64,000 bases of DNA, taken from positions 2,170,001 to 2,234,000 of the forward strand of contig NZ_CP151767.2 in assembly GCF_038443705.2 (NCBI RefSeq), given 5' to 3'. The stretch is from Yoonia sp. SS1-5 (GTDB lineage Bacteria > Pseudomonadota > Alphaproteobacteria > Rhodobacterales > Rhodobacteraceae). The first letter of the stretch is position 1. Every line of letters starts with the position of its first letter. A model generated the notes under the pieces. That model saw only the letters and a list, made by a program, of their open reading frames with translations. It was not told the DNA's origin and did not search any database. Shown here in pieces: positions 10,753-55,156 of the stretch. The translations under genes and the position numbers were made by a program.

Positions 10753-10768
10753 ATCGGCGCCACGGCGT

Positions 10769-36824: not shown

Positions 36825-36836
36825 GCTCTCTCTCCC

Positions 36837-36875
36837 GTCGCGACCGGGGTTTGCCTCCCAGGCTTCGGTCGCGGC
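36837..36875 (+). terminator. Stem-loop after the large binding-protein gene
   Basis: GTCGCGACCG (36837-36846) pairs with CGGTCGCGGC (36866-36875) with one mismatch. There is no T run, so it more likely stabilises or attenuates the transcript before the permease genes than ends it. Confidence 0.55.
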
Positions 36876-36958
36876 ACCTAATACGCTTTGTGATCCCACC
36901 CCGTCAGATCAGCATCAAAGCCACCTCACCCCGCCCGTAAACGCAGAAAGGACAGCCG

Positions 36959-37942: not shown

Positions 37943-39081
37943 GTACGCACGCCACAGACCTGCCCGAGCCACAAGATGATGTGCGGATGCCCGCCCTGCT
38001 GGGGCCAACCGCCCTGATGTGGCGCAAGTTCAAACGACATCGTGTGGCCTATATCAGCCTGTGGGTGGTCGTTTTCATCTACGTTCTGGCCCTTTTCGGA
38101 GAGTTCTTCACCACGACCGATATTGATGAAACCAACGTGCGGGCCCCCTTTGCGCCCCCGATGGGTGTTTCACTATTCGTCGAGGATGAAGACGGAACAT
38201 CGACATTTCAGTTGCATGCCAAGGGTCTGAAACTGGAACTGGATCGCGAGGCGATGCGCCGCACCTTCGTGCAAGACCCCGAAAAGATCATACCGCTTGG
38301 CTTTTTCGTACAGGGATACGAATATGAGCTGCTGGGCCTCATCCCGATGACGACCCACTTTTTCGGCCCGAAAGATCCGCGTGATCGGGTCTATTTCTGG
38401 GGCGCTGACAGGCTGGGCCGGGATATCTACAGCCGGATCATCATGGGAACGCGCATTTCGATGTCCATCGGGCTGGTTGGTGTGGCGTTTTCGCTGTTCA
38501 TCGGCGTCTCGCTTGGCGGCATTTCGGGCTATTACGGGGGATGGATCGACAACGCCATTCAGCGGCTGATCGAATTCATCCGGTCTATCCCGACAATCCC
38601 GCTCTGGATGGGGCTGGCGGCTGCGATCCCGTTGGGCTGGCCACCGTTGCGCACTTATTTCGTGGTGACCTTGATTGTCTCGATGATCGGCTGGACCGGG
38701 CTCGCCCGGGAAGTCAGGGGCAAATTCTTGAGCCTGCGCAACGAGGATTTCATCGTTGCAGCACGGCTGGACGGATTGACCGACTGGGAAGTGATCTGGA
38801 AACATATGGTGCCCAGCTTTTCCAGCCATATCATCGCATCGCTGACACTTGCCGTGCCTTTGATGATTTTGGCCGAAACCTCGCTGTCCTTTCTGGGGAT
38901 CGGATTGCAGCCCCCCATCGTCAGCTGGGGAACCTTGCTGAAAGAGGCGCAGAATATCCGGACAATTATTCAGGCCCCGTGGCTGCTGATCGCCCCCGGC
39001 ACGATGATTGTTGTTGCAGTGCTGGCACTGAACTTTCTAGGGGACGGACTTCGTGATGCCGCAGACCCAAATGCACACTGA
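37939..39081 (+). CDS. Dpp/Opp-type ABC transporter permease 2 with large periplasmic insert
   Basis: The 380-residue protein has the DppC/OppC features: a cytosolic N-terminal tail with LMWRKFKRHRVAYISLW, first membrane segment, GADRLGRDIYSRIIMGTRIS, and the loop FIVAARLDGLTDWEVIWKHM. Between membrane segment 1 and the GADRLGRD block it has about 105 residues, much longer than in DppC; such inserts are typical of YejE-like and saccharide-linked members. This fits the oversized binding protein upstream. Confidence 0.9.
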   Translation: MSTHATDLPEPQDDVRMPALLGPTALMWRKFKRHRVAYISLWVVVFIYVLALFGEFFTTTDIDETNVRAPFAPPMGVSLFVEDEDGTSTFQLHAKGLKLELDREAMRRTFVQDPEKIIPLGFFVQGYEYELLGLIPMTTHFFGPKDPRDRVYFWGADRLGRDIYSRIIMGTRISMSIGLVGVAFSLFIGVSLGGISGYYGGWIDNAIQRLIEFIRSIPTIPLWMGLAAAIPLGWPPLRTYFVVTLIVSMIGWTGLAREVRGKFLSLRNEDFIVAARLDGLTDWEVIWKHMVPSFSSHIIASLTLAVPLMILAETSLSFLGIGLQPPIVSWGTLLKEAQNIRTIIQAPWLLIAPGTMIVVAVLALNFLGDGLRDAADPNAH

Positions 39082-40081
39082 TCCGCTGGTCGAAATCCGC
39101 AACCTGCAGACCCACTTCTTTACCGATGACGGGGTAGTCAAAGCCGTCGACGGGGTAGATCTGGATGTATACCCGAACCGCACCCTCTGCATTCTGGGGG
39201 AAAGCGGGTGCGGAAAATCAATCATGGCCCGATCCATCCTGCGCATTGTCGACGCGCCGGGGCGGATCGTGGATGGGGCAATCACCTATCGCAACGCCGA
39301 TGGGCAAACCATTGATCTGGCCAAGGCCCGGCACGGGTCGCGGGAACTGCGCGCAATCCGTGGTCAGGATATCGCGATGATTTTTCAGGAACCGATGTCC
39401 TCGCTCGGGCCGATCCAGAAGATCGGCAAACAGATTACTGAAACGATCCTGCTGCACCGTCCAATGTCCAAGGCCGAAGCAAAGGAAACAGCGATCGAGA
39501 TGCTTGACCGGGTGGGCATACCCAAACCAGCCGAGCGGTTCGAGGCCTATCCGTTCGAGCTGTCGGGCGGGATGCGTCAACGGGCGATGATCGCCATGGC
39601 GCTGTGCTGCCAGCCACGCCTGCTGATCGCCGATGAACCAACAACCGCGCTGGACGTCACGACACAGGCTCAAATCCTCGATCTGATCGCCGAACTGAAG
39701 GACGAATTTCAGATGGGCGTTATGCTGATCACCCACGATCTTGGGGTTGTGGCCGAGGTGGCCGAAGACGTGGCAGTGATGTATATGGGCACCGTTGTCG
39801 AAAGAGGCGACGTCTATTCGATCTTCGAGAACCCGCAGCACCCCTACACACAAGCCTTGCTGAAGTCAGTCCCCCGTATGGGCATGACCCGGCAACATCG
39901 CCTGCCTGCCATTCGGGGCATGGTCCCGCACCCGTTGGCCCGCCCGTCCGGCTGCACCTTCCGTACCAGATGCGACCATTTCATGCCCGGTATTTGCGAC
40001 AAGGCCACACCGCCCATGACGCCCGCAGGTGACAGTGCTGCTGCGTGTTTCCTGCATAGCGAAAGCGCGGCTCATGAGTGA
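39056..40081 (+). CDS. Dpp/Opp-type ABC transporter ATPase, DppD-like
   Basis: The 341-residue protein has Walker [16 protein letters not shown], signature [15 protein letters not shown] and Walker [19 protein letters not shown], and a C-terminal cysteine cluster ([20 protein letters not shown]) that may bind an iron-sulfur cluster as known for this family. The start overlaps the permease end; ATGs at 39056 and 39071 are both possible, the first having GGGGACGG upstream. Confidence 0.92.
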
Positions 40082-41057
40082 TCCCATTCTACAGGTCCGC
40101 GATCTGGACATGCATTTTCCCATCGGTGGCGGGCTGTTCGGCAAACCGACCGATGTGGTGCGTGCGGTCGATGATATCTCTTTCGATGTGATCCGGGGCG
40201 AATCCTTTGGCGTTGTGGGCGAGTCCGGCAGTGGAAAGACCACACTGGGCCGGTGCATCATGCAGATTTTGGAACCCACCGCAGGATCCATCCGGTTTCA
40301 TGGGCGCGACAAGGATGCGGTTGAACTGGTGGGCGGCGAAAAGGAACAGCTGCGCGGCATCTGGCGGGCAATCCGCATGGTGTTTCAGGACCCGCAATCA
40401 TCCTTGAACCCCCGTCTGCGGGTGATCGAACTGGTGGGCCAATGCCTGCGCAAATCCGAAGGGTTAAAGGGGCAGGCTCTGGCCGATCGGGTATCCGCCC
40501 TCCTGGAGCAGGTTGGCCTGCGCAAGGAATTCCTGCTGCGCTACCCCAACGCATTCTCGGGCGGGCAACGGCAGCGGCTGGGGATCGCCCGCGCATTGGC
40601 CACAAACCCCGAACTGATCATCGCCGACGAGGCCGTATCGGCATTGGATGTGTCCATTCAGGCGCAGACGCTGAACCTGTTGCAGGACCTGCAATCAGAA
40701 TTCGACCTGACGTATGTCTTCATCGCCCATGATCTGGCCGTTGTGGAACATTTCTGCGACCGGATTGCAGTGATGTATCTGGGCCAGGTGGTCGAGCTTT
40801 CGACAACCGAAGAGTTGTTTCGCGCCCCCAAACACCCCTATACTCGCGCCCTGCTTGAGGCCGTGCCAATCCCTGATCCACGCGCCCGCAGGGGCAAGCG
40901 TCAGCCGGTGGCGATCAGTGACGGATCCGTCAGCAAGACAGGCTGCCGTTTCGCATCACGCTGCCCGCATGCAACCGATTTGTGCCACTCCACCAGCCCG
41001 CCGAAAAAAACCATCAACGGGGCCGATATCCTGTGCCATTTCGCCGGAGAGATTTAA
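40074..41057 (+). CDS. Dpp/Opp-type ABC transporter ATPase, DppF-like
   Basis: The 327-residue protein has Walker [16 protein letters not shown], signature [15 protein letters not shown] and Walker [19 protein letters not shown] (DEA in place of DEP, common in DppF proteins), and a C-terminal [16 protein letters not shown] cysteine motif. It overlaps the DppD-like gene by 8 bases and finishes the importer. Confidence 0.92.
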
Positions 41058-41060
41058 GAA

Positions 41061-42518
41061 ATGAAAGACGCCATGACGACAGCTACATTCGCAAAGAAAA
41101 TGTATATCGCCGGTGAATTGACCGATGGTCAGGGCACGGTGGATGTGTTGAACCCGGCCAATGACCAACTTGTGGCCAGCGTCCCCACGGCGGGCATTGA
41201 CGATGCAGATCGCGCCCTGGCTGCAGCGCGTGATGCGTTTCCAATGTGGTCACGGACGTCTATCGCAGAACGGCAGATGTGGATGCACAAGTTGCGCGAT
41301 GCCGTGATCGCCAATGAAGACCATTTGCGTGACTGCATGCACCACGAGATGGGAAAACCATGGGGCAACACGCAAGAGGATTTCGACAGTCTCAAGAATT
41401 CGCTCGAATTCTACGCCGATGAGATCGCCCGCATTCATGACACCGCTGTAGCTGACCGGGCGGGCACGCATACGCATCGGCTTGTCCACGAACCGGCAGG
41501 CGTCGCCCTGGCGTTTCTGGCATGGAACTTTCCGCTGCTGAACCTGGCGTTCAAGATCGGCCCAGCCATGGCCGCAGGCTGCCCGATCATCATCCGCCCG
41601 TCAGAACAGACCCCCATCTCGGCCTATGCTGTCGGCGAACTCTGCGCGCAGACCGGTTTGCCGCCGGGCGTCGTGCAAATTCTGTGCACCGATGGATATG
41701 ACGTGGCCGACCATCTGTCTGCCTCCCCCGTTCCGGCCCTGATCACGCTGATCGGCTCGACCAAGACCGGCCAGCATATCATGCGAACGGGCGCGACCAG
41801 CATCAAGAAATATTCGATGGAACTGGGGGGCAACGCCCCCGTTCTGATCTTTCCCGATGCCGATCTGGATGTGGCTGCTGACATTGTCTGCGGGGTCAAA
41901 TTCAACAATGCGGGCCAGATCTGCGTCTCGCCCAACCGGGTCTTTGTCCATCAGGACGTGCTGGAGGAATTTACCGCCCAGGCAGTTGCAAAAGCGCAAA
42001 ATGCGGGTGTCGGCTGGGACAAGACCGCTGACATCCTGACCGGGCCGGTGATTGATGGCCGGGCGTGGGCGCGGCTGAAGGGGCTGATTGACGGGGCCGC
42101 CGCCGGGGGCGCGCAGGTTCTTGCCGGTGGCGACCGCCCCGGCGATTTGCCGGATGGGCATTTTCTGGCCCCAACCGTGCTTGGCAACGTTACCGAAGAT
42201 ATGGATGTCTACCGGCAGGAAACATTTGGCCCGATTGTCAGCATCATTCCGTTTGATGATGATACGGATCTGGATCGCATGGCGAATGATTGCGACGAAG
42301 GCGGGCTGACCGCCTATATCTTTACCCGCGACCTGGCATTGGCCGAGGATTGGGCCGCCCGTCTGCGATATGGCGAAGTCCAGATCAACGGGGTGAAATA
42401 CGATATTGACCTGCCACATGGCGGTATCGGTCAATCGGGCATCGGGCATGATTGTTCGACGCTCGCATTGCATGATTATCTGGTCATCAAACGCATCACA
42501 CGGGCGCTGCCTGCCTAA
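41061..42518 (+). CDS. NAD(P)-dependent aldehyde dehydrogenase (semialdehyde dehydrogenase type)
   Basis: The 485-residue protein has the ALDH catalytic glutamate in MELGGNAPVLIF and the catalytic cysteine in FNNAGQICVSPNRVFVH, plus AWNFPLLNLAFKIGPAMAAG for cofactor binding. It is closest in pattern to succinate- or 2-ketoglutarate-semialdehyde dehydrogenases. Following a sugar-acid dehydratase and importer, it probably performs the last oxidation of a non-phosphorylated sugar-acid route; the direct substrate is inferred. GGAGAG precedes the ATG, three bases after the ATPase stop. Confidence 0.92.
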   Translation: MKDAMTTATFAKKMYIAGELTDGQGTVDVLNPANDQLVASVPTAGIDDADRALAAARDAFPMWSRTSIAERQMWMHKLRDAVIANEDHLRDCMHHEMGKPWGNTQEDFDSLKNSLEFYADEIARIHDTAVADRAGTHTHRLVHEPAGVALAFLAWNFPLLNLAFKIGPAMAAGCPIIIRPSEQTPISAYAVGELCAQTGLPPGVVQILCTDGYDVADHLSASPVPALITLIGSTKTGQHIMRTGATSIKKYSMELGGNAPVLIFPDADLDVAADIVCGVKFNNAGQICVSPNRVFVHQDVLEEFTAQAVAKAQNAGVGWDKTADILTGPVIDGRAWARLKGLIDGAAAGGAQVLAGGDRPGDLPDGHFLAPTVLGNVTEDMDVYRQETFGPIVSIIPFDDDTDLDRMANDCDEGGLTAYIFTRDLALAEDWAARLRYGEVQINGVKYDIDLPHGGIGQSGIGHDCSTLALHDYLVIKRITRALPA

Positions 42519-42599
42519 ACGCGGCGCCTGACCTGGCATTGCATCTGGCCACCTTGCCTGCATGATAGGCAAACCAACCGGATGGGGCGAACGCGTCAG

Positions 42600-42887
42600 A
42601 TGATCACAACACAAGATCAGGTCACCGTGGCCTTCACCCTGGCAGGGCAAGTGGGGGCCCGTGACTTTCCGGATTGGATCGCCCGGCACGCCGCAAAACT
42701 GGGCATAGCCTATGACATTGCCGAAAGCACACAGCGCAGCCTGAGCCTGCGGGCCACGGGCGCCGCCGAGATGGTGGATGCCTTTGCGCTTGCCTGCAGC
42801 CTGGGTCCACAAAGCGTCGAGATTGAGGCTTTGACCTTCGCTGATACATCCGCTGATTTGCGAAGTGACGGATTTTTCAGCGGTTGA
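42600..42887 (+). CDS. Small acylphosphatase-like protein lacking the active site
   Basis: From ATG 42600 the product has 95 residues. The pattern VAFTLAGQVGARDFPDWIAR, AAKLGIAYDIAE, LSLRATGAAEMVDAFALAC and LGPQSVEIEAL follows the acylphosphatase fold (about 90 residues), but the catalytic loop xGxVQGVGFR is degraded to AGQVGARDF and the catalytic asparagine is not at its place. It is probably not a phosphatase; a ligand-binding or structural role is possible. The start is uncertain (ATG 42582 also in frame). It stands alone between the ALDH and the Rieske operon. Confidence 0.6.
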   Translation: MITTQDQVTVAFTLAGQVGARDFPDWIARHAAKLGIAYDIAESTQRSLSLRATGAAEMVDAFALACSLGPQSVEIEALTFADTSADLRSDGFFSG

Positions 42888-42995: not shown

Positions 42996-43595
42996 GTGGA
43001 CTGGGTTGCTGTCGGATTGTGCGAGGATGTTCCCGCGGGCACTGTTGTGCCGCGGCGCGTCCTCGGCACAGATCTGGCAATCTGGCGCAGTGCAACCGGC
43101 AAATTTCACGCCTGGGGGGATCGTTGCCCGCATCGCGGCATGCGGCTGTCACACGGTTTTGTCCGGGGCGAGGTTTTGTCCTGCATCTACCATGGATGGC
43201 AATACGGCACGGATGGTGCCTGCGGCTATATTCCCGCCCATCCGAACCTGACCCCGCCCAAGACGATTTGCGCGCAAACCTATCCATGCAATCAGCATGA
43301 TGACGCGATATGGGTCACGTTGTCCGGAACAGACCAACCCCTGCCAGATGTTGGCGGGTGCCGCCCTGTCCGGTCCCTCGACTTCGCAGTTCCGGCGGCG
43401 GACATCGCGGCATGGTTTGGGCAATCACTTGCACCGGTCATTACGGTTGCAGCACCGCATGACCTGCATATCGCATTGCAGCCCAGCACGGACAACGCGT
43501 GTATGGTCCATGCATTCGCCCCGGCGGATCAGGATCGCAAAGCCGTTTCACGATATCTGGAACAGATACGGGCCGATATCGAGGAGGCCGCATGA
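42996..43595 (+). CDS. Stand-alone Rieske [2Fe-2S] protein of a split oxygenase
   Basis: From GTG 42996 (AGAGG 7 bases upstream) the protein has 199 residues. It starts DWVAVGLCEDVPAGTVVPRR and has the full Rieske motif C44-P-H46, 16 residues, C63-x2-H66 in RCPHRGMRLSHG and LSCIYHGWQYG. After about residue 110 it continues with a short segment that looks like a worn-down part of an oxygenase catalytic domain, without the iron ligands. It therefore can pass electrons but not hydroxylate. It overlaps the next gene, which has the catalytic iron site but no Rieske motif; the two probably form one enzyme. A longer frame from 42909 is possible. Confidence 0.85.
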   Translation: MDWVAVGLCEDVPAGTVVPRRVLGTDLAIWRSATGKFHAWGDRCPHRGMRLSHGFVRGEVLSCIYHGWQYGTDGACGYIPAHPNLTPPKTICAQTYPCNQHDDAIWVTLSGTDQPLPDVGGCRPVRSLDFAVPAADIAAWFGQSLAPVITVAAPHDLHIALQPSTDNACMVHAFAPADQDRKAVSRYLEQIRADIEEAA

Positions 43596-44428
43596 ACGAC
43601 GCCGCCGATCATCACTGGTATCCGGTTGGATTGCTGTCCGACATTACTACGCCCCGCCAGACGTTACTGCTTGGGCAGGACATCACGGTTCAGGGGGACG
43701 GCACCGGTTATCAAGTGATCAATGCGGCTGGTCAGGCCATGCCGACCATCCAGCGATTTGGGCATTTGTGGACAAGCCCCGGCCAACCGAACCGTGATCT
43801 TTTCACGATCCCCGAGACGGATGCGCCCGGTCGCAGATTGGTTGATGTGGGTTCTGTGCGGGTAAAGTGTTCGCCCCTGCGGGCGGTCGAGAACTTTCTC
43901 GACATCGCGCATTTCCCCTTTGTGCACACCGATATCCTTGGCGCAGAACCACATACCGAGGTTGCCCGGTATCAGGTCGATATCCGCGAAGAGGTGGACG
44001 AGGTCTGGGCCACGAAGGTCAAGTTCTTTCAGCCGCAGGCCGCCAAATCCGCCGAAGGCGGGATCACGACCGAATATATGTACCGGGTGCCCGCACCAAC
44101 CTGCGCGGTCTTGTACAAGACCTGCCCGCCGCGCCCGGGCGAATGGGATGTGATCACCCTGTTCGTTCAGCCCCTGACCGAAGAATGGTGCGAGGTCTGG
44201 CCATGGATGGCGCTGTATGATGACCAATCCACCATGGCCGAGATGATCAGCTTTCAACAGCTGATCTTCATGCAGGACCGATCGATCCTGGAAAACCAGA
44301 TACCGCGCAAGCTGCCGCTTGATCCGGGGCTTGAGGTGCCGACACAGGCTGACATGACATCGGTTGCGTATCGGCGCTGGCTGAAACGGATTGGGTACAC
44401 ATATGGGGCGCAGTTGGTGGCCGCATGA
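43592..44428 (+). CDS. Rieske-oxygenase catalytic subunit lacking the Rieske cluster segment (NdmC-like)
   Basis: The 278-residue protein begins HHWYPVGLLSDITTPRQTLL, the start of a VanA-type Rieske domain, then jumps from VINAAG to IQRFGHLWTSPG, so the part that normally carries CxH and CxxH is missing. The mononuclear iron site is intact: N101, D104, H107 and H112 in ENFLDIAHFPFVH, with MQDRSILENQ further on. Such cluster-less catalytic subunits are known in NdmC, the 7-methylxanthine N7-demethylase component, which borrows a Rieske domain from a partner. Here the partner is the protein just upstream, overlapping by four bases. The likely reaction is oxidative N- or O-demethylation. Confidence 0.85.
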   Translation: MNDAADHHWYPVGLLSDITTPRQTLLLGQDITVQGDGTGYQVINAAGQAMPTIQRFGHLWTSPGQPNRDLFTIPETDAPGRRLVDVGSVRVKCSPLRAVENFLDIAHFPFVHTDILGAEPHTEVARYQVDIREEVDEVWATKVKFFQPQAAKSAEGGITTEYMYRVPAPTCAVLYKTCPPRPGEWDVITLFVQPLTEEWCEVWPWMALYDDQSTMAEMISFQQLIFMQDRSILENQIPRKLPLDPGLEVPTQADMTSVAYRRWLKRIGYTYGAQLVAA

Positions 44429-45036
44429 TCCTGTATGACTATGTGCTGAGTGCCAGCTGCTACAAGCTGCGTTTGATGGCCGCCCTTTTGGGGCAGCCGT
44501 TGACATTGCGCGCGGTGAATTTTCATCCGGGCCGGGAACATAAATCACCCCAGATGCTGGCATTGAACCCGCAGGGAACCCTACCGATCCTGCAAGATGG
44601 CGATCTGGTATTGACCCAAAGTGCGGACATGCTGCGCCACCTCACCCGTGATCACCCGGACTGGCGGGGCGCCGACGATCCGTGGCTGTCTTTTGCTGCC
44701 GACCTGAACGCAAGCCTCGGCCTGGCCCGGCTACACGACATCCTGTGCTATCCGGCAGATATCTACGCCGTCCGGCGGGCGGGCGTGCAGCAATTGCGGC
44801 AGCTTGAGGCGCATCTGGCCGAACAGCGGTTTGATGGGCTGACGTTTCTGACAGGGTCAAGGCCGACCATCGCCGATATCGCCTGTTTCCCCAATACCGC
44901 GCTGGCCCCTGATGGGGGCGTCAGTCTTGATGTCTATCCGTCCATCCGCCTGTGGATGCGGGCCATCCGGTCGCTGCCCGGTTTCATCGAAATGCCGGGC
45001 ATTCACCGCCTGCACGAGTTGGAGCGCCCGTCATGA
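44425..45036 (+). CDS. Glutathione S-transferase-like protein (NdmE-like position)
   Basis: The 203-residue protein has a thioredoxin-like N-terminal domain (YVLSASCYKLRLMAALLG, NPQGTLPILQDGDLVLTQSA) and a helical GST C-terminal domain with TGSRPTIADIACFP. In the methylxanthine system, NdmE is a GST-like protein needed structurally by NdmC and NdmD rather than as an enzyme. The same place and coupling (four-base overlaps on both sides) suggest a comparable role here. Ordinary glutathione transferase activity cannot be excluded. Confidence 0.85.
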   Translation: MILYDYVLSASCYKLRLMAALLGQPLTLRAVNFHPGREHKSPQMLALNPQGTLPILQDGDLVLTQSADMLRHLTRDHPDWRGADDPWLSFAADLNASLGLARLHDILCYPADIYAVRRAGVQQLRQLEAHLAEQRFDGLTFLTGSRPTIADIACFPNTALAPDGGVSLDVYPSIRLWMRAIRSLPGFIEMPGIHRLHELERPS

Positions 45037-46418
45037 CGGCGGTATTACTGAAAGGCTGCGCGGCGGTTGTGACATCGGCCTATGACCCGGTGCTGTGGGA
45101 CCATGATATTTTGTGCCAAGACGGGGCGATTACAGCCATCGGCCCCGATCTTGCCCGGGCGGCACCAGCAGGGGCCGAGATCATCAATGGGGCAGGGCTT
45201 TTTGTCTATCCGGGGTTGGTCAACACGCATCATCACTTCTTTCAGTGCTTCGTGCGTAACCGGGCCGCGCTGGACTGGACCAGATACAGCGTGATCGAAT
45301 GGCTTGACCGGATTTATCCGATCTTTGCGCGACTGACCGAGGATTGCTTTTACCACAGCGCCGTTGTTGCGATGGCAGAACTGATCAAGCATGGCTGTAC
45401 CACGGCCTTTGACCACCAATACTGCTTTCCAAAACATGCAGGCTCGCGGATCATTGATCGGCAGTTCGAGGCGGCCGACCTGATGGGGATGCGGTTTCAC
45501 GCGGGCCGGGGCGGAAACACCCTGCCCAAATCCGAAGGCAGCACCATTCCGGACGAAATGCGCGAAACAACCGACGCATTCATTGCGGATTGCGCCCGTG
45601 TGATCGACGCCTATCACGACCCGGCCCCCCTTGCGATGCGGCAGGTTGCGGTCGCGCCCTGCCAGCCGGTCAATTGTTACCGCGAAACATTTGTGGAATC
45701 CGTCGCCCTTGCCCACGACAAAGGTGTGATCCTGCACAGCCATGTGGGCGAAGGCGAAAGCCCTGTCATCGAACAGGTCCATGGGATGCGCACGGTCGAT
45801 TACTGCGAAAGCCTTGGCTTTGCCGGGCCGGATACGTTTTATGCCCATTGCTGGGAGCTGTCGCGCGAAGAGCTGCAAAAGATGGCCGCGGCCGGCACCG
45901 GCGTCGCGCATTGCTCTGAACCTGTCTATCTGGTGGGGGCGGAGATCACCGATATTCCGGCAATGGATGCGCTGGGACTGCGCGTGGGTCTGGGATGTGA
46001 TGGCGCTGCGTCAAACGACAATTCCAACCTGATGCACTGCGTACATTCGGCTTATATGCTGCAGTGCCTGGCATCTGCGTCCCGGCAGGATCCGGTTCCG
46101 CCGCCTGCTGCCTTTCTTGCCTACGCAACCGAAGGCGGTGCATCGCTATTGGGGCGCACGGATATCGGGGCGCTGCGTCCCGGCATGGCGGCGGACCTCT
46201 TTGCGATTGATACGCGCAAGCTTGACTATGTGGGCACCCGCCACGATCCGATCAGCCTGATTGCCAAGGTCGGGATTGGCGCACCGGTCGACCTGACAAT
46301 GATCAACGGACGCGTCGTCTGGCAAAACGGCGCATTTCCACATCTGGACGAGGGCGCGCTGTTTGCCGCCGCCGAAAAGACACTTCACACCATATTGCCA
46401 CAAACAGGGGGACTATAA
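45033..46418 (+). CDS. Guanine/8-oxoguanine deaminase-type amidohydrolase
   Basis: The 461-residue enzyme has the subtype-III amidohydrolase metal motif in VNTHHHFFQ (H66/H68), then HSHVGEGESP, AHCWEL and GCDGAASNDNSNLMH with the catalytic aspartate. The block PGLVNTHHHFFQCFVRNR and the SND ending match the 8-oxoguanine deaminase/ATZ-TRZ group. It removes an amino group from a purine or s-triazine-like ring. With a nucleobase/nucleoside importer in the same operon, a modified guanine is the natural substrate. It overlaps the GST gene by four bases and ends right before the BMP gene. Confidence 0.88.
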   Translation: MTAVLLKGCAAVVTSAYDPVLWDHDILCQDGAITAIGPDLARAAPAGAEIINGAGLFVYPGLVNTHHHFFQCFVRNRAALDWTRYSVIEWLDRIYPIFARLTEDCFYHSAVVAMAELIKHGCTTAFDHQYCFPKHAGSRIIDRQFEAADLMGMRFHAGRGGNTLPKSEGSTIPDEMRETTDAFIADCARVIDAYHDPAPLAMRQVAVAPCQPVNCYRETFVESVALAHDKGVILHSHVGEGESPVIEQVHGMRTVDYCESLGFAGPDTFYAHCWELSREELQKMAAAGTGVAHCSEPVYLVGAEITDIPAMDALGLRVGLGCDGAASNDNSNLMHCVHSAYMLQCLASASRQDPVPPPAAFLAYATEGGASLLGRTDIGALRPGMAADLFAIDTRKLDYVGTRHDPISLIAKVGIGAPVDLTMINGRVVWQNGAFPHLDEGALFAAAEKTLHTILPQTGGL

Positions 46419-47513
46419 ATGTCATACACCACCAAACGCCGCACGTTTCTGAAAGGATCGCTTGCCGCGACAACCGCCATTGCATTGCCGATGCGGGCAA
46501 TGGCCGACGACACGCTGAAAATGGGGGTGGTATTACCCTCACCCGAGGCGGATGTGGGCTGGTCGCATACCTTGATGGACGGCGTCCGGACCGTACAAGA
46601 GGCCTACGGCGACAAGATCGAAGTCACCGTGCTTGAAAACATCGCCGAAGGGCCAGATGCGGACCGGATCGCCAATGGGCTGGTTGCGGATGGTAACACC
46701 GTCCTGCTGCTGGGGTCCTTCGGGTATCAGAATGGCGGCGTCCAGATCGCCAAGCGCCGGCGCGATGTGTCGATCATTCACGCATCCGGCTTTCTGACAG
46801 AGCCGAATTTCGCACCATTCACCGCGAAATATTGGCAGGGCACCTATCTGATGGGGATGGCCGCCGCATCGCTGAGCCAATCCAAGAAGCTTGGCTGCGT
46901 CGGCGCATTTGCAATCCCCGAACTGATCACCTCGATCAATGCCTTCATGCTGGGCGCCAAATCTGTCGACCCCGAGATCGAAATGAGCGTCGTCTGGGTC
47001 AATAGCTGGTTTGACCCGGCCTCTGAACAGGACGCGGCCAAGGCCCTGATCTCGCAAGGGGCTGACGTGATCTTTTCCAATGCACAAGACACCCCGTCCG
47101 TGATCGCCGTGGCGGAAGAGGCCGGGGTTTATGCATGGAACCTCAACTCGTCCATGAAGTCATACGCCCCATCGAAATATCTGGGCGTTGTCGGCACCGA
47201 CTGGGGCCCGCATTTCAAACGCCTCGTTGATGCCCATGTCGCGGGGGAGTTCCCGGGCGAAAACTTCTGGCTGGGGATGGAGGACGACATTGTCTACACC
47301 GCCGACTGGAACCCCGATATCCCCGCCGATATTGTGGCAAGCATCGAAGCCCGACAGGCCGAAATCCAGGCCGGCACATTCGACGTCTTCAAGGGGCCAC
47401 TGACCGATCAGGCGGGCGCAGAGCGGGTCGCTGACGGTGTCACCATGACGGATGATGAAATACTCAGCATGGATTGGCACGTCACCGGCGTGACAACCCC
47501 GCTGCCTTCATGA
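46419..47513 (+). CDS. BMP-family (PnrA-like) nucleobase/nucleoside binding protein
   Basis: The 364-residue protein has a twin-arginine signal (KRRTFLKGSLAATTAIALPM) and the BMP family fold with GVVLPSPEADVGWSHTLMDG, LLLGSFGYQ and ALISQGADVIFSNAQDTPSV. BMP proteins bind purine nucleosides or bases in the periplasm. It follows the deaminase by one base and precedes the ATPase with a four-base overlap. Confidence 0.9.
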   Translation: MSYTTKRRTFLKGSLAATTAIALPMRAMADDTLKMGVVLPSPEADVGWSHTLMDGVRTVQEAYGDKIEVTVLENIAEGPDADRIANGLVADGNTVLLLGSFGYQNGGVQIAKRRRDVSIIHASGFLTEPNFAPFTAKYWQGTYLMGMAAASLSQSKKLGCVGAFAIPELITSINAFMLGAKSVDPEIEMSVVWVNSWFDPASEQDAAKALISQGADVIFSNAQDTPSVIAVAEEAGVYAWNLNSSMKSYAPSKYLGVVGTDWGPHFKRLVDAHVAGEFPGENFWLGMEDDIVYTADWNPDIPADIVASIEARQAEIQAGTFDVFKGPLTDQAGAERVADGVTMTDDEILSMDWHVTGVTTPLPS

Positions 47514-49009
47514 CCGAACCGGCCCTATTGACCCTGTCAGGCGTGTCAAAACGCTATGGCACGGTTCAGGCCAACAAGGCGATCGACCTGGCTGTCAGGC
47601 CCGGGTCGATCCACGCCGTTCTAGGTGAGAACGGCGCTGGCAAGTCCACATTGATGAAACTGATCTACGGCGTCGAACACCCCGATGAAGGCACCATCGC
47701 CTGGAACGGCGCCCCGGTCCAGTTGGCCCGGCCATCGGATGCGCAGGCATTGGGCATTGGTATGGTATTTCAACATTTTTCGCTATTTGAGACGCTGAAT
47801 GTGTTGCAAAATGTTTCCCTGATGGTCCCCGGCAAGCCAGCCGATCTGGCCCGACAGATTGGCGCGCTTGGACAAAAGTTCGGCCTGACCGTTGATCCCT
47901 ATGCCATGGTTCACACCCTGTCCGTGGGCGAACGTCAGCGGGTCGAGATTATCCGCTGCCTGCTGTTGAACCCAAAACTTTTGATCCTGGACGAGCCCAC
48001 ATCGGTTTTGCCCCCGCAAAGCGTCAGATTGCTGTTTGACACCCTGCGCAAGTTGCAGGCCGATGGCACGGCCATCCTTTTCATTTCGCACAAGCTGGAA
48101 GAAATCCGCGAATTATGTGACGAGGCGACCGTTTTGCGCGGGGGCGAGGTGACCGGCCATATCGACCCGCGTGAACATGACGCCCGCGCGCTCGCACAGA
48201 TGATGATCGGGCGCGCCATGCCCCAGGTGGCCGCATCCAGCGCCACTGAACCGGGCGAAATCCGCTTGCGCCTGACCGGCCTTAGTCATGCACGTGCGAC
48301 GCGTTTTGGCACAAGTCTGGAGGATATCAACCTTGATCTGCACGGTGGCCAGATCATCGGAATTGCGGGTATTTCAGGCAATGGGCAACAGGAACTTGCG
48401 GCCCTGATATCGGGCGAAACCCGCGCCGGGCAATCCGATATGATCCAGATCATGGGCCGGTCTGTGGGCCACCTGGGGCCGATGCAACGCCGCAAACTTG
48501 GGTTTACCTTTGTCCCCGAAGAACGGCTTGGCCGTGGGGCCGTGCCCGAAATGTCGCTCGCCGATAACAGCCTGCTGACGGCGCATCGGCAAGGGATGCT
48601 CAGGGGCGGCTTTATCAGACGTCAGGTCGAAAAGACCTTTACCCGCCGCTGCATCGAGGAATTCGACGTCCGCACTCCCGGACCGGATGCCGAGGCCGGC
48701 GCCATGTCGGGCGGCAATCTGCAAAAGTTCATTCTGGGACGCGAGATCATGCTTGCCCCCGACGTCATGCTGGTTGCCCAGCCGACCTGGGGGGTCGATA
48801 TTGGTGCTGCAACAGCTATCCGGCGCCGCCTTGTGGACATGCGCGACAGCGGAACCGCCATCCTCGTGATTTCTGAAGAGCTCGAAGAACTGTTCGAGAT
48901 TTGCGACATCCTGCATGTCCTGCACGAGGGGCATCTATCCGCGCCCCTGCCCGTGGCCGAAACATCTGCGGATGATGTCGGGGCCTACATGATTGGAGCC
49001 AGCGCATGA
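47510..49009 (+). CDS. BMP-type ABC transporter ATPase with two ABC domains
   Basis: The 499-residue protein has two fused ATPase domains. The first has Walker A GENGAGKSTLMKLIYG and Walker B LLILDEPTSVLPPQS; its signature region reads LSVGERQRVEIIRC. The second is degenerate at Walker A (GISGNGQQELAALISG) and has MSGGNLQKFILGRE and LVAQPTWGVD, as usual for this family. It energises the two permeases downstream. Confidence 0.93.
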   Translation: MTEPALLTLSGVSKRYGTVQANKAIDLAVRPGSIHAVLGENGAGKSTLMKLIYGVEHPDEGTIAWNGAPVQLARPSDAQALGIGMVFQHFSLFETLNVLQNVSLMVPGKPADLARQIGALGQKFGLTVDPYAMVHTLSVGERQRVEIIRCLLLNPKLLILDEPTSVLPPQSVRLLFDTLRKLQADGTAILFISHKLEEIRELCDEATVLRGGEVTGHIDPREHDARALAQMMIGRAMPQVAASSATEPGEIRLRLTGLSHARATRFGTSLEDINLDLHGGQIIGIAGISGNGQQELAALISGETRAGQSDMIQIMGRSVGHLGPMQRRKLGFTFVPEERLGRGAVPEMSLADNSLLTAHRQGMLRGGFIRRQVEKTFTRRCIEEFDVRTPGPDAEAGAMSGGNLQKFILGREIMLAPDVMLVAQPTWGVDIGAATAIRRRLVDMRDSGTAILVISEELEELFEICDILHVLHEGHLSAPLPVAETSADDVGAYMIGASA

Positions 49010-50076
49010 GGTTGCAACTGATCCGACGCGACGCGGCCTCGCGCCTTGCGATGTTTGGCGCGCCCGCATTGGCCCTGATCCTGACCTGCCTAAGCAGCCT
49101 GATCCTGTTTGCGTTGTTGGGCATTCCCGCAGGCAAAGCATTGCATGCGCTACTGCTAAAGCCGTTTCTAAGCTGGTACAGCTTTTCCGAGGTGCTGCTG
49201 AAAATGGCACCGCTGCTGTTGATTGCGCAGGGTCTGGCCATCGGGTTTCGGGCAAATGTGTTCAACATTGGGGCCGAGGGGCAGTTTATCATCGGGGCGG
49301 TCTGCGCATCGGCCTTTCCGGTATTTTACCCCGACGGCAGTTTCCCGATGATGCTGCCTGCAATGATCATTGCAGGCGGGTTGGGCGGGATGGCCTATGC
49401 GGGCATTGCCGCAGGGCTGCGCACGCGCTTTGGGGCGTCCGAAATTCTCGTCACGTTGATGCTAAGCCTGATTGCGGTGCAGATACTGAACTACCTCCTG
49501 TTGGGGCCGTGGAAGGATCCGCGTGGCTTCAATTTCCCGCAAACCGTGATGTTCCCCGATAACGCGCTTTTGCCGCTGCTATTTGAAAATGTGCGGCCCA
49601 ATATCTCGTTGATCTTTGCATTGGGCGCGAGCCTTTTTGCCTATCTGATGATGGAACGCCACTTTCGCGGTTATCAATTGCGCACGGCGGGCCTCGCGCC
49701 GAAGGCGGCCCGCTACGCGGGGTTTTCGGCCCCCCGGATGATCTGGCTCAGCCTTGCGCTCAGCGGGCTGGCCGCCGGGATCGCAGGGGCCAGCGAAGTT
49801 GCCGGACCACTGGGACAACTGCAACGATCTGTTGCAACAGGGTACGGATATGCGGCCATCATCGTGGCCTATGTGGGCGGGCTGCGACCCATTGGGATCA
49901 TCGCATCAAGCTTTCTGATCTCGGTTTTGTATATCGGAGGGGACAGCGCGACCGTTTCCGCCGGGCTGCCTGTCGCGGCGGTTGAGGTCTTTCAGGGCAT
50001 GCTGCTGTGCTTTTACCTGCTGACCTTCACGCTGATCCGCTTTCGGATCCAGATCACGCGAGGTGCAACCACATGA
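49006..50076 (+). CDS. BMP-type ABC transporter permease 1
   Basis: The 356-residue membrane protein has the family block GLAIGFRANVFNIGAEGQFIIG and ASEILVTLMLSLIAVQILNY, as in nucleoside importers related to RbsC. It overlaps both neighbours by four bases. Confidence 0.92.
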   Translation: MRLQLIRRDAASRLAMFGAPALALILTCLSSLILFALLGIPAGKALHALLLKPFLSWYSFSEVLLKMAPLLLIAQGLAIGFRANVFNIGAEGQFIIGAVCASAFPVFYPDGSFPMMLPAMIIAGGLGGMAYAGIAAGLRTRFGASEILVTLMLSLIAVQILNYLLLGPWKDPRGFNFPQTVMFPDNALLPLLFENVRPNISLIFALGASLFAYLMMERHFRGYQLRTAGLAPKAARYAGFSAPRMIWLSLALSGLAAGIAGASEVAGPLGQLQRSVATGYGYAAIIVAYVGGLRPIGIIASSFLISVLYIGGDSATVSAGLPVAAVEVFQGMLLCFYLLTFTLIRFRIQITRGATT

Positions 50077-50954
50077 GCGCGCTCGAATTCCTTTTGGCCG
50101 GCACATTGGCTGCGGCCCTTCCGCTACTGCTGGCCGCTTTGGGGGAAATGGTGGTGGAAAAGACCGGCCTTCTGAACCTGGGGCTGGAAGGGATGATGGC
50201 CATCGGTGCCGCGATCGCCTTTATCTGCGTCTATCATTCCGGATCACATGGGCTTGGCTTTGCGGCAGCCGCGATTGTCAGCGCGATCTTGGCCATGGTG
50301 TTTGCGTTTCTGGTCATTTTTGTCCGCGCGAATGAGGTCGCGGCGGGCTTGGCCGTTGGTGTGTTGGGGCTGGGGTTGTCGGCGTTGTTTGGCAAGACAT
50401 ATGAAAGCCTGACAATCACCGGCCTGCCCGAATTCGGCCTGCCTGTCCTGTCGCAAATCCCGGTCATCGGCCCGACCTTGCTGACCCAGGATGTCGTGGT
50501 CTGGCTGGCCATCCTTGGCACTGTCGGGCTGTGGTTTGTGCTGAACAAGACAAAGCTTGGGCTGATCATCACCGCCGTCGGCGAGAATGCCGAAGCCGCC
50601 CGCGCCATTGGGTATCCCGTGGCAGCGATACGGTGTGCGGCGGTCGCATTTGGCGGGGCGATGTGCGGCTTGGCGGGCGCATACGCATCGACGGTGTACA
50701 CACCGCTTTGGGCAGATGGTATGATCGCCGGGCGGGGCTGGATTGCGCTTGCGCTTGTCGTATTCGGCACATGGCAGACAGGCCGCGTCGCCTTTGGTGC
50801 GCTGTTGTTTGGGGTGTTGTCACTGGGCGAATTAACAGCCCAGGCGATTGGTGTCGCCATTCCATCGCAGGTTCTGTCCAGCCTGCCCTACATTGTCACA
50901 ATCCTGATGCTGGTCGCGATTTCGCGTCATCGGCATCGCGCCAGCCTGCAGTAG
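50073..50954 (+). CDS. BMP-type ABC transporter permease 2
   Basis: The 293-residue membrane protein has LLAALGEMVVEKTGLLNLGL and EGMMAIGAA near the N terminus and VFGTWQTGRVAFGALLFG near the end, matching the second permease of BMP-type importers. It closes the eight-gene operon that starts at 42996; a stem-loop follows at 50962-51002. Confidence 0.92.
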   Translation: MSALEFLLAGTLAAALPLLLAALGEMVVEKTGLLNLGLEGMMAIGAAIAFICVYHSGSHGLGFAAAAIVSAILAMVFAFLVIFVRANEVAAGLAVGVLGLGLSALFGKTYESLTITGLPEFGLPVLSQIPVIGPTLLTQDVVVWLAILGTVGLWFVLNKTKLGLIITAVGENAEAARAIGYPVAAIRCAAVAFGGAMCGLAGAYASTVYTPLWADGMIAGRGWIALALVVFGTWQTGRVAFGALLFGVLSLGELTAQAIGVAIPSQVLSSLPYIVTILMLVAISRHRHRASLQ

Positions 50955-51055: not shown

Positions 51056-54000
51056 TTATGCGATCAGGTCATCATCGCCAAATCCGAACACGCCGATCAA
51101 TGTCACGCTCCCCTCTGACGCGCCGGTCAGGGTGATCTCGGTTCCGTGGATGGTATCGGCGAATGCAATATCCGAATCTTCAAGGTCGATGAATGCGAGC
51201 GTGTCCTGCCTGGCGTTGAAATCCTCGATCACGTCATCGCCAAAACTGCCCGCAAAGATGAACGTATCCGCACCGCGACCACCAAACAGCGTGTCGTCGC
51301 CTTCGCCACCGGTCACATTATCCCGGCCCCGACCACCAAAGATCAGATCGTCGCCGTCACCCCCGAACAGCGCATCAGCGCCGCGCCCGCCGAACAGATG
51401 GTCATCGCCATCGCCGCCATCGACGCTGTCGCGCCCGCGGCCTGCGAAGATCAGATCATCCCCATTTCCACCCGACAGGGTATCCCGGCCGCGCAGGCCA
51501 AGGATAATATCATCACCACCTTCGCCCGTCAGAACATTGGCCCGTCTGTCACCAACAAGGAACAAATCATCCGCCTGTTCCAAGAGGAACGTGGCGACGA
51601 CGGGTTCGTGATCCGACGCGAAATCAGCGAAGTCGTTGTTGACATGCACAACATCGACCTGCGCGCCGTCCAACAGGTTATCGGTGACAAAAACGTGGTC
51701 CAGAACCTGGCTGTTGCCCTGAAATACAAACGTGTAGGCCTCGTCACCCGGAAGCGCGTCGATCAGGTTCGTCAGAACCTTTTCATCCCCCGTACCGGGC
51801 AGATCCTCGGCCAGTTCGTCGGTGAACTCAAAGGTGTTGAGATCGCCCAGAACAGACACATTGGCATCGGGGTCAGCCGCCAGCAGCGCGTCGACAACCT
51901 GATTGATGGCCAGCGCCTGTTGTTCGCGTGCGTCTTCGCCCGCCTGCAGGAAAGGCTGCTCTGCCCCAAAGATCGGCGTCGACCCAAACCGCGACGAGAA
52001 GTGATTGTTGATCAACGTCACATCATGGCCGTTGAATTCGAACACACCCAATAGCGGATCACGGGAGCCCGCGAATGCATCCGCGTTGCTGACCCCGTAT
52101 TCGGCGAGAATATCGGATTCCAGCGTCTGCACGTCCTTGAGCGCAACCCGATCTGCATTCCAAAGAAACGCATTGCGGATGTTGCCCCCCGGTACGCCCC
52201 CGTTTTCGCCGTCTTCATCGACAACAGCGCTGACAAACTCGTAACGCGGACCGCCGGCAGCGACGATGGCATCGGCGATAGCTTGCAATGTGGCATCAGC
52301 ACCAAGCGTGCCATCATCTGCAACACCGCTGTCATCCTGAATTTCCTGCAGCGCCAGAATATCCGGCGTACCCAGATTTTCGACAATTTGCAGGGCCAGT
52401 TGCGCGATTTGATCAGCATCGCCATCAGCCTCGGCCGCCGTCACGTTCAGGACGTTGTAGGTCGCGACGCTTAGCCTGTCGTCCCCGCCAACGACTTCGG
52501 TGATTTCAGCGACATTTGCGCTTGGGGTCTCGACCGCGAACAGCTCTGTCACCCTGACCTCGTAGTTGCCAAAGCCGTAGTCGATCACGCCGGTGATGTT
52601 TGAAAGGTCATCGCCCAGATTGATATCCGCCGGGTCAAACCCGTCAGGCAGCAAATCTGCATCAAACTGAATCTGAATACGTTCCGGGTTCAGGTCACCC
52701 AGCCCATCCGCATCGGCGTTCAGGTTCAGGCCACCCCGGTCATTCAGCCCCCCGTTGGGCGAGGTGACATTAGCACCGTCATCGGCCACAACCCAGGTTT
52801 CGCCAAATCGGTTCGTGGCAGAAATCGCGACCGGATTATAGACCGTCGCCAACATACCCTCGAGGCTTTCGTAAAAATCAATCGCGTCGGTTTCGGGGTT
52901 GAAAACGCCCGGATCGTCTTGAAGGTTAACAGGCAATTCGCCATCCGAAATGACGATTTCGCTGGGTGGATTGCGCCCCGCGGCACCAATCAGCACCGCG
53001 TCCGGCAGGGCATTGCCACTGCTTAGCACGTCGATCTCGACATTGCTTAGCTGTGTTGTCGACAGATTGCCGCTTGCCGCACCGCCGGGGATGAATTCAC
53101 CGACCGTACCCTGAAGCCGGACCGCATCCCCGATTGCGACGCCATCCGTATTGCCGAAACCGGTAAAGACAAAGATCGCGTCAGAGGTGGCCGTGTCGCC
53201 ATCCCCCTCTGGGTCCTGCACATAGAAACCAGCCCCATCAATGGCCGTTACGATGCCTGACGTGATCACATCATCGCCAACAAAGGCCGAGATATGCCCT
53301 GCCCCCTGAATTTCCGGAATTGTCAGGGTCGGCGTGGCGGGAATGATATCGTAGACAATTGTGCTGCCTGATATCTCATAGGCAACCGCGATTTGTGCAT
53401 TGCCGCTTGTGCTGTCTTCTGCCGGGATAAAGGCAATCGTCTCGGGGCCGTGGCGGGCCACGTCACCCGCTGCGGTGGTATCGACAAAGGCCGGTGGAAT
53501 GTAGTTCACGAATGTGGAATTGGCCGGGTCGCTGATGTCATAAATCATGATCCCGCTGTCGCGCTCTAACCCGATAAAGGCGTATGTTGCGTCGCCGACC
53601 TCGCCGATGATGATGGCTTCCGGCTCTGGGCCTTTTGCGTCAGACCGGTCTTCGCCATCGTCGCCATCATCATCGTTAAACCGCTCGGGCGCGCGGCTGG
53701 CAATGATCTGTTCAAACTGGGGGCCGGAATCGAACACAAGATTGCCCGCCGCATCAAAGATCGAGAATGATCGCGACGAGAATGTGTGCAGCACATCAAT
53801 ATCGCCATCCCCGTCCGTGTCGCCATCGACGGTCGACACCTCCAGCCGTTCCAGCCCGGTGATGTCAACGGCAGGGTCAAGCAGGCCATCTGCGGCCAGG
53901 TCCGCGACCCGATCTTCGTCAAAGTCGCGGCTATCGCCTTCGTTTGCGGTGGCGATATATGTCTGGCCATTCAGTTCGAAAGCGGCAATTGCGTCGGCCA

Positions 54001-54940
54001 TCCGAAACCCGACAAGATTGTCAAAATTGGTGATATTGACGACCCCGTTGTCATCAGCGTCGATCTTGCTTTCGCTGCTGAAATCAACCGTCCCCAATGA
54101 GAAGATGTCAACAATCGCCCCGCTGGTCAGGTCAATCGTCGCAATCGCGTTACTTTCCTGCAGCGACACAAAGGCCTGGGTGCCATCGGGACTGATGGCG
54201 ATATATTCAGGCTCTACATCCTCGGCCAGACTGACGCCCTGCTGAATGCGGATACCGGCGTCGCGGGCGCGATCCTCCAGCCCGTTGAACTGCGTGAAAT
54301 CAAGGATAGTGGCGGCGGGGGCTGCCGGATTTGTCGTGTCGATGATGGCAACCGTCCCAAGCGGGTTGTCGTCGCTTTCGGTATCAGCGTTCTTTTCGCC
54401 CTCACCCGCGACAAGCAATTGGCTGCCATCCGCGTTGAATGTCAGCTGATCAGGCAGATTGCCCACATCGACAGTCGACAGTAGCGCCCCGGTCGCCGCA
54501 TCAAATAGCGCGACAAACCCGGGTTGCGACAGTTCCACCGTTTCGCCAAACAGGTCCCGCGTGATATTCGGACGCGAAATGGCAACCGCGACAACACCAT
54601 TGCTGACCGCGACGGATTGCACACTGTCAAACCCGTCAAGCGCGCTCAGATCAATCGACCCTGCTTGCGCATTGGCCGCGATGTCAAAAATGTCGATACG
54701 GTCGCGCGCCCCGTTGGTGACGTATAGTTTGCCATCCTCGTGCACGACCACTTCCGATGCGCCCTCGGCATCATCGGGCGCTTCACCTTCGCCCTGAAAT
54801 TCCGCAGCGATTGCAAAACCAAGGCTTTCGGTTGCAACCGGCGCGCCTGCATCATTTTCGGGCAATGCAAGGTTCCGAACGCGCGGGTCATCCTGCCCTG
54901 CCAGATCGGAGGTCTGCATCGTCTGTTGTTCATTCGTCAT
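51056..54940 (-). CDS. Very large RTX extracellular nuclease (ExeM/NucH type) with choice-of-anchor I propeller
   Basis: The product has 1294 residues. The first half (about 40-540) is a choice-of-anchor I beta-propeller (SEVVVHEDGKLYVTNGARDR, YIAISPDGTQAFVSLQESNA). An OB-fold region follows (about 545-810), then an endonuclease/exonuclease/phosphatase domain (about 825-1145) with VATYNVLN, ALQEIQDDSG, NNHFSS, VLGDLNTFEF and SDHEPVVATF. The C terminus (about 1155-1245) has GGxGxD RTX repeats. No Sec signal is visible, so it is probably exported by a type I system and degrades extracellular DNA, a source of phosphate and purines. AGGA precedes the ATG at 54940. Confidence 0.92.
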   Translation of the reverse strand: MTNEQQTMQTSDLAGQDDPRVRNLALPENDAGAPVATESLGFAIAAEFQGEGEAPDDAEGASEVVVHEDGKLYVTNGARDRIDIFDIAANAQAGSIDLSALDGFDSVQSVAVSNGVVAVAISRPNITRDLFGETVELSQPGFVALFDAATGALLSTVDVGNLPDQLTFNADGSQLLVAGEGEKNADTESDDNPLGTVAIIDTTNPAAPAATILDFTQFNGLEDRARDAGIRIQQGVSLAEDVEPEYIAISPDGTQAFVSLQESNAIATIDLTSGAIVDIFSLGTVDFSSESKIDADDNGVVNITNFDNLVGFRMADAIAAFELNGQTYIATANEGDSRDFDEDRVADLAADGLLDPAVDITGLERLEVSTVDGDTDGDGDIDVLHTFSSRSFSIFDAAGNLVFDSGPQFEQIIASRAPERFNDDDGDDGEDRSDAKGPEPEAIIIGEVGDATYAFIGLERDSGIMIYDISDPANSTFVNYIPPAFVDTTAAGDVARHGPETIAFIPAEDSTSGNAQIAVAYEISGSTIVYDIIPATPTLTIPEIQGAGHISAFVGDDVITSGIVTAIDGAGFYVQDPEGDGDTATSDAIFVFTGFGNTDGVAIGDAVRLQGTVGEFIPGGAASGNLSTTQLSNVEIDVLSSGNALPDAVLIGAAGRNPPSEIVISDGELPVNLQDDPGVFNPETDAIDFYESLEGMLATVYNPVAISATNRFGETWVVADDGANVTSPNGGLNDRGGLNLNADADGLGDLNPERIQIQFDADLLPDGFDPADINLGDDLSNITGVIDYGFGNYEVRVTELFAVETPSANVAEITEVVGGDDRLSVATYNVLNVTAAEADGDADQIAQLALQIVENLGTPDILALQEIQDDSGVADDGTLGADATLQAIADAIVAAGGPRYEFVSAVVDEDGENGGVPGGNIRNAFLWNADRVALKDVQTLESDILAEYGVSNADAFAGSRDPLLGVFEFNGHDVTLINNHFSSRFGSTPIFGAEQPFLQAGEDAREQQALAINQVVDALLAADPDANVSVLGDLNTFEFTDELAEDLPGTGDEKVLTNLIDALPGDEAYTFVFQGNSQVLDHVFVTDNLLDGAQVDVVHVNNDFADFASDHEPVVATFLLEQADDLFLVGDRRANVLTGEGGDDIILGLRGRDTLSGGNGDDLIFAGRGRDSVDGGDGDDHLFGGRGADALFGGDGDDLIFGGRGRDNVTGGEGDDTLFGGRGADTFIFAGSFGDDVIEDFNARQDTLAFIDLEDSDIAFADTIHGTEITLTGASEGSVTLIGVFGFGDDDLIA

Positions 54941-55156
54941 TATCCTGGTCCCCACCATAGTCATCTTATAGGGCGCACACGCGCCGCAGCCGTAAAATCA
55001 CAGCATCATGCAACAGCTTCACGACGGCCCATCCCGACGCAACTGCACATGTCCTGAACAGAATTGAAAATCGAGACCAACCGCCGCGCGATACGGCGAT
55101 GGGCAATGCGAAAACTGCGTTTTTGTGAAATCCTATGGATCACGCGCACCTACATT

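Follow-up and report, generated by a model that had tools for sequence, protein, structure and literature searches.

Why should a stand-alone Rieske protein, a Rieske oxygenase subunit devoid of a cluster, a glutathione S-transferase (GST)-like protein, an amidohydrolase and a BMP-type importer be encoded side by side, and on which compound would such a set act? The question is raised by positions 42996..50954 of the window analysed here, a stretch of 64,000 nucleotides from contig NZ_CP151767.2 of Yoonia sp. SS1-5 (Rhodobacteraceae). The answer that we hold to be fairly probable is an accessory catabolic operon for N-methylated guanines, which would combine import, hydrolysis at N2 by an enzyme of the N2,N2-dimethylguanine hydrolase (NdmH) type, and Rieske N-demethylation, most likely at N7, to xanthine.

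A first-pass annotation of this DNA had described an operon of eight genes, most of them overlapping by four bases. The eight genes are real and lie on the forward strand where they had been placed, and Pfam agrees for every one of them (Rieske 81.7 bits, VanA_C 75.6, GST_N_3 45.1, Amidohydro_1 163.7, Bmp 126.6, ABC_tran 155.7, and BPD_transp_2 matched twice); the operon's first gene, at 42582-42887, had been missed. Four-base overlaps join six of the seven junctions within the eight-gene run, namely Rieske/catalytic, catalytic/GST, GST/deaminase, binding protein/ATPase, ATPase/permease and permease/permease, and at the seventh the start of the binding-protein gene follows directly on the deaminase stop.

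A probable split Rieske demethylase

The Rieske protein (199 aa; 42996..43595, +) consists of a Rieske domain and a shrunken catalytic-domain shell without an iron site, and the catalytic subunit (278 aa; 43592..44428, +) of a mononuclear-iron domain and a shrunken, cluster-less Rieske shell. The former carries all four cluster ligands and the latter none, in line with the earlier description of the catalytic subunit as cluster-less. Profile comparison supports the degenerate Rieske shell in the catalytic protein (probability 91-96%) and finds no match between the C-terminal 88 residues of the Rieske protein and the catalytic domain (E 0.9), a relation that is visible only in the structure model and in full-length alignments. 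The best solved folds for both halves are the single-chain Rieske oxygenases SxtT/GxtA and NdmA, and both proteins look like shrunken whole subunits with complementary losses of their metal sites. As each lacks the metal site of the other, the pair would have to meet head to tail for electron transfer, and since the structurally characterised Rieske oxygenases are described in PMC12445004 as C3-symmetric, with the cluster of one subunit serving the iron of its neighbour, the stoichiometry of the split pair is a real puzzle.

The known relative of this arrangement is NdmCDE of Pseudomonas putida CBB5, for which PMC4408171 reports N7-specific demethylation of 7-methylxanthine; that paper presents the complex as the earliest example on record in which a Rieske domain has left its oxygenase and become joined to the reductase. 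A gene cluster of Paraburkholderia caffeinilytica CF1 was used as a stand-in for the CBB5 NdmC, NdmD and NdmE sequences. Judging by its name this strain is presumably a caffeine degrader; on its plasmid an NdmC-like gene adjoins a 591-aa NdmD-like fusion of Rieske domain and reductase and an NdmE-like GST, together with two more genes for oxygenases and two for formaldehyde oxidation. The kinship to NdmC and NdmE proposed earlier is borne out, with 49% identity between the catalytic protein and the NdmC-like protein and 40% over 205 columns between the GST-like protein (203 aa, with GST domains; 44425..45036, +) and its NdmE-like counterpart. The Rieske protein is the counterpart of the N-terminal part of NdmD, to which it is 36% identical over residues 12-154, and the Rieske counterpart from Rhizobium tumorigenes aligns to NdmD over residues 12-254.

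A tree was built from 59 catalytic subunits together with nine single-chain oxygenases. In it the cluster-less subunits, NdmC-like proteins included, form one clade (100/100); the split form occupies a single branch of this clade (48 rows, 96/85), and the fused forms are distributed over several branches whose base is unresolved. One subunit, L176_c2, was counted here as fused on the ground that it adjoins an NdmD-type gene, though the script had labelled it split; L176_c1 falls in the split branch, yet only a fused NdmD-type gene is present in its stretch. In a tree of Rieske domains from 43 split loci, nine single-chain oxygenases and the usable eight of ten fused loci, one branch separates off the split domains (93/85) and another the fused ones (99/93). 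The catalytic subunit is related to NdmC in sequence, and its modelled fold matches SxtT, NdmA and NdmB; the first-pass proposal, which would have fallen had no such kinship to NdmC existed, thus passed this check. Because the reductase half of NdmD is absent, the operon demethylase is a sister variant of NdmCDE and not a member of it. Two different NdmC-type subunits with a single NdmD and NdmE, and with BMP importer genes near, are found in L176 and at 8956-13216 of L024 (Sinorhizobium meliloti pSymA), where a xanthine dehydrogenase also lies nearby.

The wider family also holds HpxD-type oxygenases, and the Rieske enzyme could be a purine C8 ring hydroxylase like the molybdenum-independent xanthine hydroxylase HpxD rather than a demethylase. 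We regard this as very unlikely, given that HpxD retains its own Rieske cluster and falls outside the 100/100 clade that holds the NdmC-like proteins, and that the genome has XdhB. The plasmid listings of the analysis were spread samples of 60, 60 and 40 rows. Five weaker plasmid matches, all single-chain oxygenases, were inspected, and three of them are purine-linked: one from Leptolyngbya with a BMP importer, one from Niallia with an NCS2-like permease as read from its sequence, and one from Pantoea annotated as HpxD. In Leptolyngbya boryana pLBX (L201, 6356-12010) the gene of the single-chain enzyme stands after a complete BMP importer, an arrangement that is possibly the ancestral form of the split system.

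Hydrolase and importer

The amidohydrolase (45033..46418, +) had been called a deaminase of the guanine/8-oxoguanine type. Its family holds, but the narrower assignment does not, as it scores below the cut-offs of both 8-oxoguanine deaminase (NF006055, 376 bits versus 532) and the guanine deaminase GuaD (TIGR02967, 116 versus 375.4). The most fitting assignment is to the N2,N2-dimethylguanine hydrolases (NdmH type), described in 2026 with their active-site residues listed (PMC13054789). All 13 residues of the Pleomorphomonas oryzae enzyme (Q74, W85, W93, Y98, Y133, N165, C213, Q214, N217, E243, H275, P300 and D326 in poNdmH) are present in the window hydrolase at a constant offset of 3. Each of these positions is kept in 83 to 89 of 89 aligned deaminase rows, six paralogues lack the set, and the 8-oxoguanine deaminase encoded elsewhere in the genome departs from it at five positions. 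The operon enzymes form a clade with AtzB and an enzyme from Pusillibacter, apart from GuaD and the 8-oxoguanine deaminases (100/99), and a metagenome-assembled genome (MAG) of Pleomorphomonas (L091) has the same operon with the N165/C213 numbering of the characterised P. oryzae enzyme. An NdmH-like enzyme with 12 of the 13 residues is also encoded with a BMP importer and a purine-nucleoside phosphorylase in the gut clostridium Pusillibacter faecalis (L218, 2280-9383), in a stretch in which no Rieske gene is annotated.

According to PMC13054789, NdmH enzymes convert N2,N2-dimethylguanine to xanthine with a kcat/KM of 10^5-10^6 and are 150-3600-fold better on it than on guanine, which they also accept. 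The full residue set suggests that the natural substrate of the window enzyme probably carries N2-methyl groups, with or instead of an N7-methyl group. The route first proposed runs from imported 7-methylguanine through deamination to 7-methylxanthine and on to xanthine by loss of the N7-methyl group, and gives N2-methyl groups no part. The NdmC-type subunit and the NdmE-type GST speak for it, as do the reported action of NdmCDE on 7-methylxanthine (PMC4408171, in part) and the acceptance of guanine by NdmH enzymes. It stays among the candidates, but it is not specifically shown, and a hydrolase with all the residues of enzymes that so strongly prefer N2,N2-dimethylguanine points elsewhere; we judge it unlikely as the whole account.

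The importer is complete, comprising a Pfam Bmp binding protein (46419..47513, +), an ATPase with two ABC domains matched by ABC_tran in two stretches (47510..49009, +; joined to the binding-protein gene by an ATGA overlap) and two BPD_transp_2 permeases (49006..50076 and 50073..50954, both +). The binding protein has a Tat-type signal match just below the Pfam cut-off (21.5 versus 22.7), and its match to the B6-type BMP importer model NF047927 reaches 91.4 bits, below the cut-off of 400. Its closest solved relatives are 3s99 and AtzT (6pi5; E 7e-71), the latter found with guanine bound at a KD of about 110 nM in the part of PMC6834077 used. By hand mapping on the alignment printed there, five of the seven guanine contacts of AtzT are kept (Ser97, Phe98, Glu165, Trp194 and Asn218), Tyr45 is replaced by Trp, and Asn220 lies in a loop with one inserted residue. 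The earlier assignment to a purine-type importer is supported by these relatives, and the contacts support a guanine-like ligand, predicted to have some change of shape.

AtzB and AtzT both belong to atrazine breakdown, and the substrate of the hydrolase might instead be a heterocycle of plant or synthetic origin, for example an s-triazine, making the operon a xenobiotic pathway. The window hydrolase shares 57% identity with AtzB of P. aurescens TC1, in which I, S, S and I stand in place of the N, C, Q and N that are kept in all 20 sampled operon enzymes. A change of these residues is reported as the origin of hydroxyatrazine hydrolases, AtzB being regarded as a recent evolutionary response to a herbicide (PMC13054789). 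With the operon spread over many genera in addition, we give this explanation the least credence of all those considered.

Conservation, genomic context and the search for a reductase

Gene order was compared in the best 80 of at least 515 confirmed catalytic-subunit matches, taken from named genomes and biased to close relatives. The full order of small gene, Rieske, catalytic, GST, hydrolase, binding protein, ATPase, permease and permease is kept in 67 of these loci, and this nine-gene order is conserved far beyond chance. Two further loci (L048 and L050) lack only a detectable small gene, six hold a shorter piece of the operon, mostly near a contig end, and three (L094, L104 and L105) have a guanine deaminase in the hydrolase's stead, with the transporter genes shuffled. 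An NdmH-type gene lies within the operon in 72 loci, and the four-base overlap between the Rieske and catalytic genes recurs in 65. Judging from record titles, most of the loci are presumably from Rhodobacterales and Rhizobiales, and one (L107) is a gammaproteobacterial MAG. Plasmid pRL10 of Rhizobium johnstonii carries the same nine genes. The operon is a patchily distributed accessory element, as the catalytic subunit was found at E<=1e-60 in 20 of 295 sampled genomes of the window's own family, was absent at that threshold from the single genome sampled within its genus, and was found in 8 of 385 genomes of a class-level sample. In the open-licence PMC literature on the operon, on split Rieske enzymes and on methylguanine breakdown we recognised no description of it, although one could exist elsewhere.

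The replacement of NdmH by a guanine deaminase, at another position of the operon, is seen in the three loci named above and in Rhizobium tumorigenes (L023), and it argues that the substrate is guanine-like; the deaminases of L023, L094 and L105, the three tested, reach 420-434 bits, above the cut-off of 375.4. The R. tumorigenes locus (2185-11215, on pRt1078) is rearranged, with the small protein, Rieske and GST genes divergent from importer, catalytic subunit and guanine deaminase. Since the same Rieske genes persist in such operons, the Rieske enzyme might remove exocyclic N2-methyl groups to give guanine, which the hydrolase or a guanine deaminase would turn into xanthine, so that one base is served by parallel routes. 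The genome moreover has no match to PF11927, the family of the dimethylamine oxidase DmmA/HODM, so that dimethylamine freed by the hydrolase may waste carbon. Demethylation at N2 would be redundant in the 72 loci with an NdmH-type gene, and the only studied NdmC-type complex is N7-specific (PMC4408171, in part), which leaves this alternative improbable in our view. Elsewhere the genome encodes a guanine deaminase (500.8 bits versus 375.4), an 8-oxoguanine deaminase (673 versus 532) and the xanthine dehydrogenase XdhB (1206 versus 849.5), and the operon hydrolase would accordingly be a specialised third enzyme.

The gene at the head of the operon (42582..42887, +; possible true start ATG at 42600) encodes a small acylphosphatase-like protein, named from a weak NCBIfam match (20.5 bits versus a cut-off of 98). 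A homologue stands at the same operon place in 78 of the 80 loci, and the R. johnstonii and R. tumorigenes counterparts are 35% and 32% identical to it. In an alignment of 82 rows other near-invariant residues are retained, but the QGVGFR-type motif, presumably the catalytic loop of acylphosphatases, does not appear in the conserved columns, and the family thus seems, as far as its alignment tells, to lack the usual loop.

The operon holds no reductase gene and its Rieske protein stands alone in the window, as the first-pass annotation had noted; the 80 related loci likewise gave no VanB-type match at the cut-off used, and a single weak NdmD match (26%, L041). A stand-alone VanB-type reductase of 319 aa is encoded elsewhere in the genome (L012, C2:3725831-3726787) and shares 43-45% identity with the reductase portions of two NdmD-like proteins; three other frames of the genome match it at 37-39%. 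It was rejected as a dedicated partner, as its only close relatives among the 295 family genomes (74% in G174 and 69% in G001) occur without a catalytic subunit at E<=1e-60. The catalytic subunits of G184 and G266 share 82% and 84% identity with that of the window, and in these two genomes the best matches to the reductase are at 38% and at E 8e-51, respectively; none was found at E<=1e-30 in G088, G094, G224 and the 73%-complete G273, and matches of 40-44% occur in G104, G153, G165 and G226 among others. A Fer2 survey of nine genomes of this kind returned many candidates. The L012 gene itself (790-1749) is a lone one, with no oxygenase among the listed frames of its 3.2-kb stretch.

Of the neighbouring genes, the upstream oligopeptide-type importer and aldehyde dehydrogenase (34881-42518) were rejected as parts of the operon, as 12 relatives gave only 27-47% matches to some of them. 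The convergent neighbour (51056-54964, -) encodes a choice-of-anchor I protein of 1302 aa, in which RTX repeats are combined with an endonuclease/exonuclease domain and which falls below the ExeM/NucH extracellular endonuclease cut-off (147 versus 300 bits). A link to the operon through nucleic-acid scavenging is tempting, but the first 900 residues of this protein have no match in 12 related loci. At the window edge, 62209-63999 (-) encodes a molybdopterin-cofactor-binding protein, truncated by the end of the window, with MoCoBD domains and an XdhB model match below cut-off.

Proposed pathway and comparison with known systems

In the pathway that we favour, the BMP-type importer would take up a methylated guanine base, by analogy with guanine-binding AtzT, and the hydrolase would strip the exocyclic N2-amino, methylamino or dimethylamino group, as its same-residue relatives suggest, to give xanthine or a ring-methylated xanthine. 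The split demethylase, read by analogy with NdmC, would oxidise a ring N-methyl group to formaldehyde and leave xanthine, N7 being the most likely position because NdmCDE acts there on 7-methylxanthine (PMC4408171, in part). The [2Fe-2S] cluster would come from the Rieske protein and the mononuclear iron from the NdmC-type protein, with the NdmE-type GST probably acting as their scaffold, as proposed for NdmCDE, and with an outside NAD(P)H reductase or ferredoxin reducing the Rieske protein. The genome's xanthine dehydrogenase would take the resulting xanthine, and the overall release would be xanthine, formaldehyde and an amine. The operon probably lets its hosts feed on methylated guanine bases, for example from decaying RNA, in which 7-methylguanine, N2,N2-dimethylguanine and N2,N2,7-trimethylguanine, the base of the trimethylguanosine cap, all occur. 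The last of these would need exactly both activities, and the other two one each or both.

Several observations weigh against this pathway. NdmH alone takes N2,N2-dimethylguanine to xanthine and leaves the demethylase without an obvious duty there. The hydrolase is missing from the operon in two of the 80 loci (L081 and L095), and L086 is a true short form with Rieske and GST genes in the absence of hydrolase and importer, so that the two activities can be separate. The catalytic subunit shares only 42-49% identity with the subunits of fused-type clusters and stands in a branch apart from them, and the methyl position may therefore differ from N7; in its model, moreover, the iron-ligand loop (residues 107-121) has low confidence. 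The absence of a PF11927 match, the lack of any reductase tied to the operon across the 80 loci and the genome surveys, and the two of five single-chain oxygenases (Mycetohabitans and Rhodococcus) with no adjoining purine gene count on the same side.

A wider version of the proposal, which we advance only tentatively, is a pathway for RNA methylguanines up to N2,N2,7-trimethylguanine, in which the importer would be followed by NdmH freeing dimethylamine and by the N7-demethylase removing the last methyl group; the demethylase would derive from a duplicated Rieske oxygenase that lost iron site and cluster in complementary fashion and became an obligate hetero-complex instead of a homotrimer, and such operons would be the pool behind AtzB. 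The operon is a likely physiological setting for NdmH, whose context its discoverers described in 2026 as still under investigation and in the main text of whose paper a word search found neither Rieske nor BMP nor operon (PMC13054789). It also suggests in what kind of genetic context the herbicide-degrading AtzB may have originated, and is a likely case of two shrunken oxygenase copies sharing one reaction.

Set beside the known systems, the window hydrolase has the full reported residue set of NdmH from Pleomorphomonas oryzae and others, which are reported from purified enzymes. It shares a clade with the hydroxyatrazine ethylaminohydrolase AtzB, in which CQNN has become SSII. The binding protein is of the same BMP (PnrA-like) family as AtzT and differs from it at Tyr45 and in the Asn220 loop. 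SxtT/GxtA and NdmA hold both metal sites in one chain, which are here divided between two proteins. Of NdmCDE the operon is an unfused counterpart: both have a cluster-less catalytic subunit of one clade, a GST-like partner and a homologous Rieske part, but in the window the Rieske protein is free of a reductase half, the catalytic subunit belongs to a separate branch, and an NdmH-type hydrolase and a BMP-type importer have joined.

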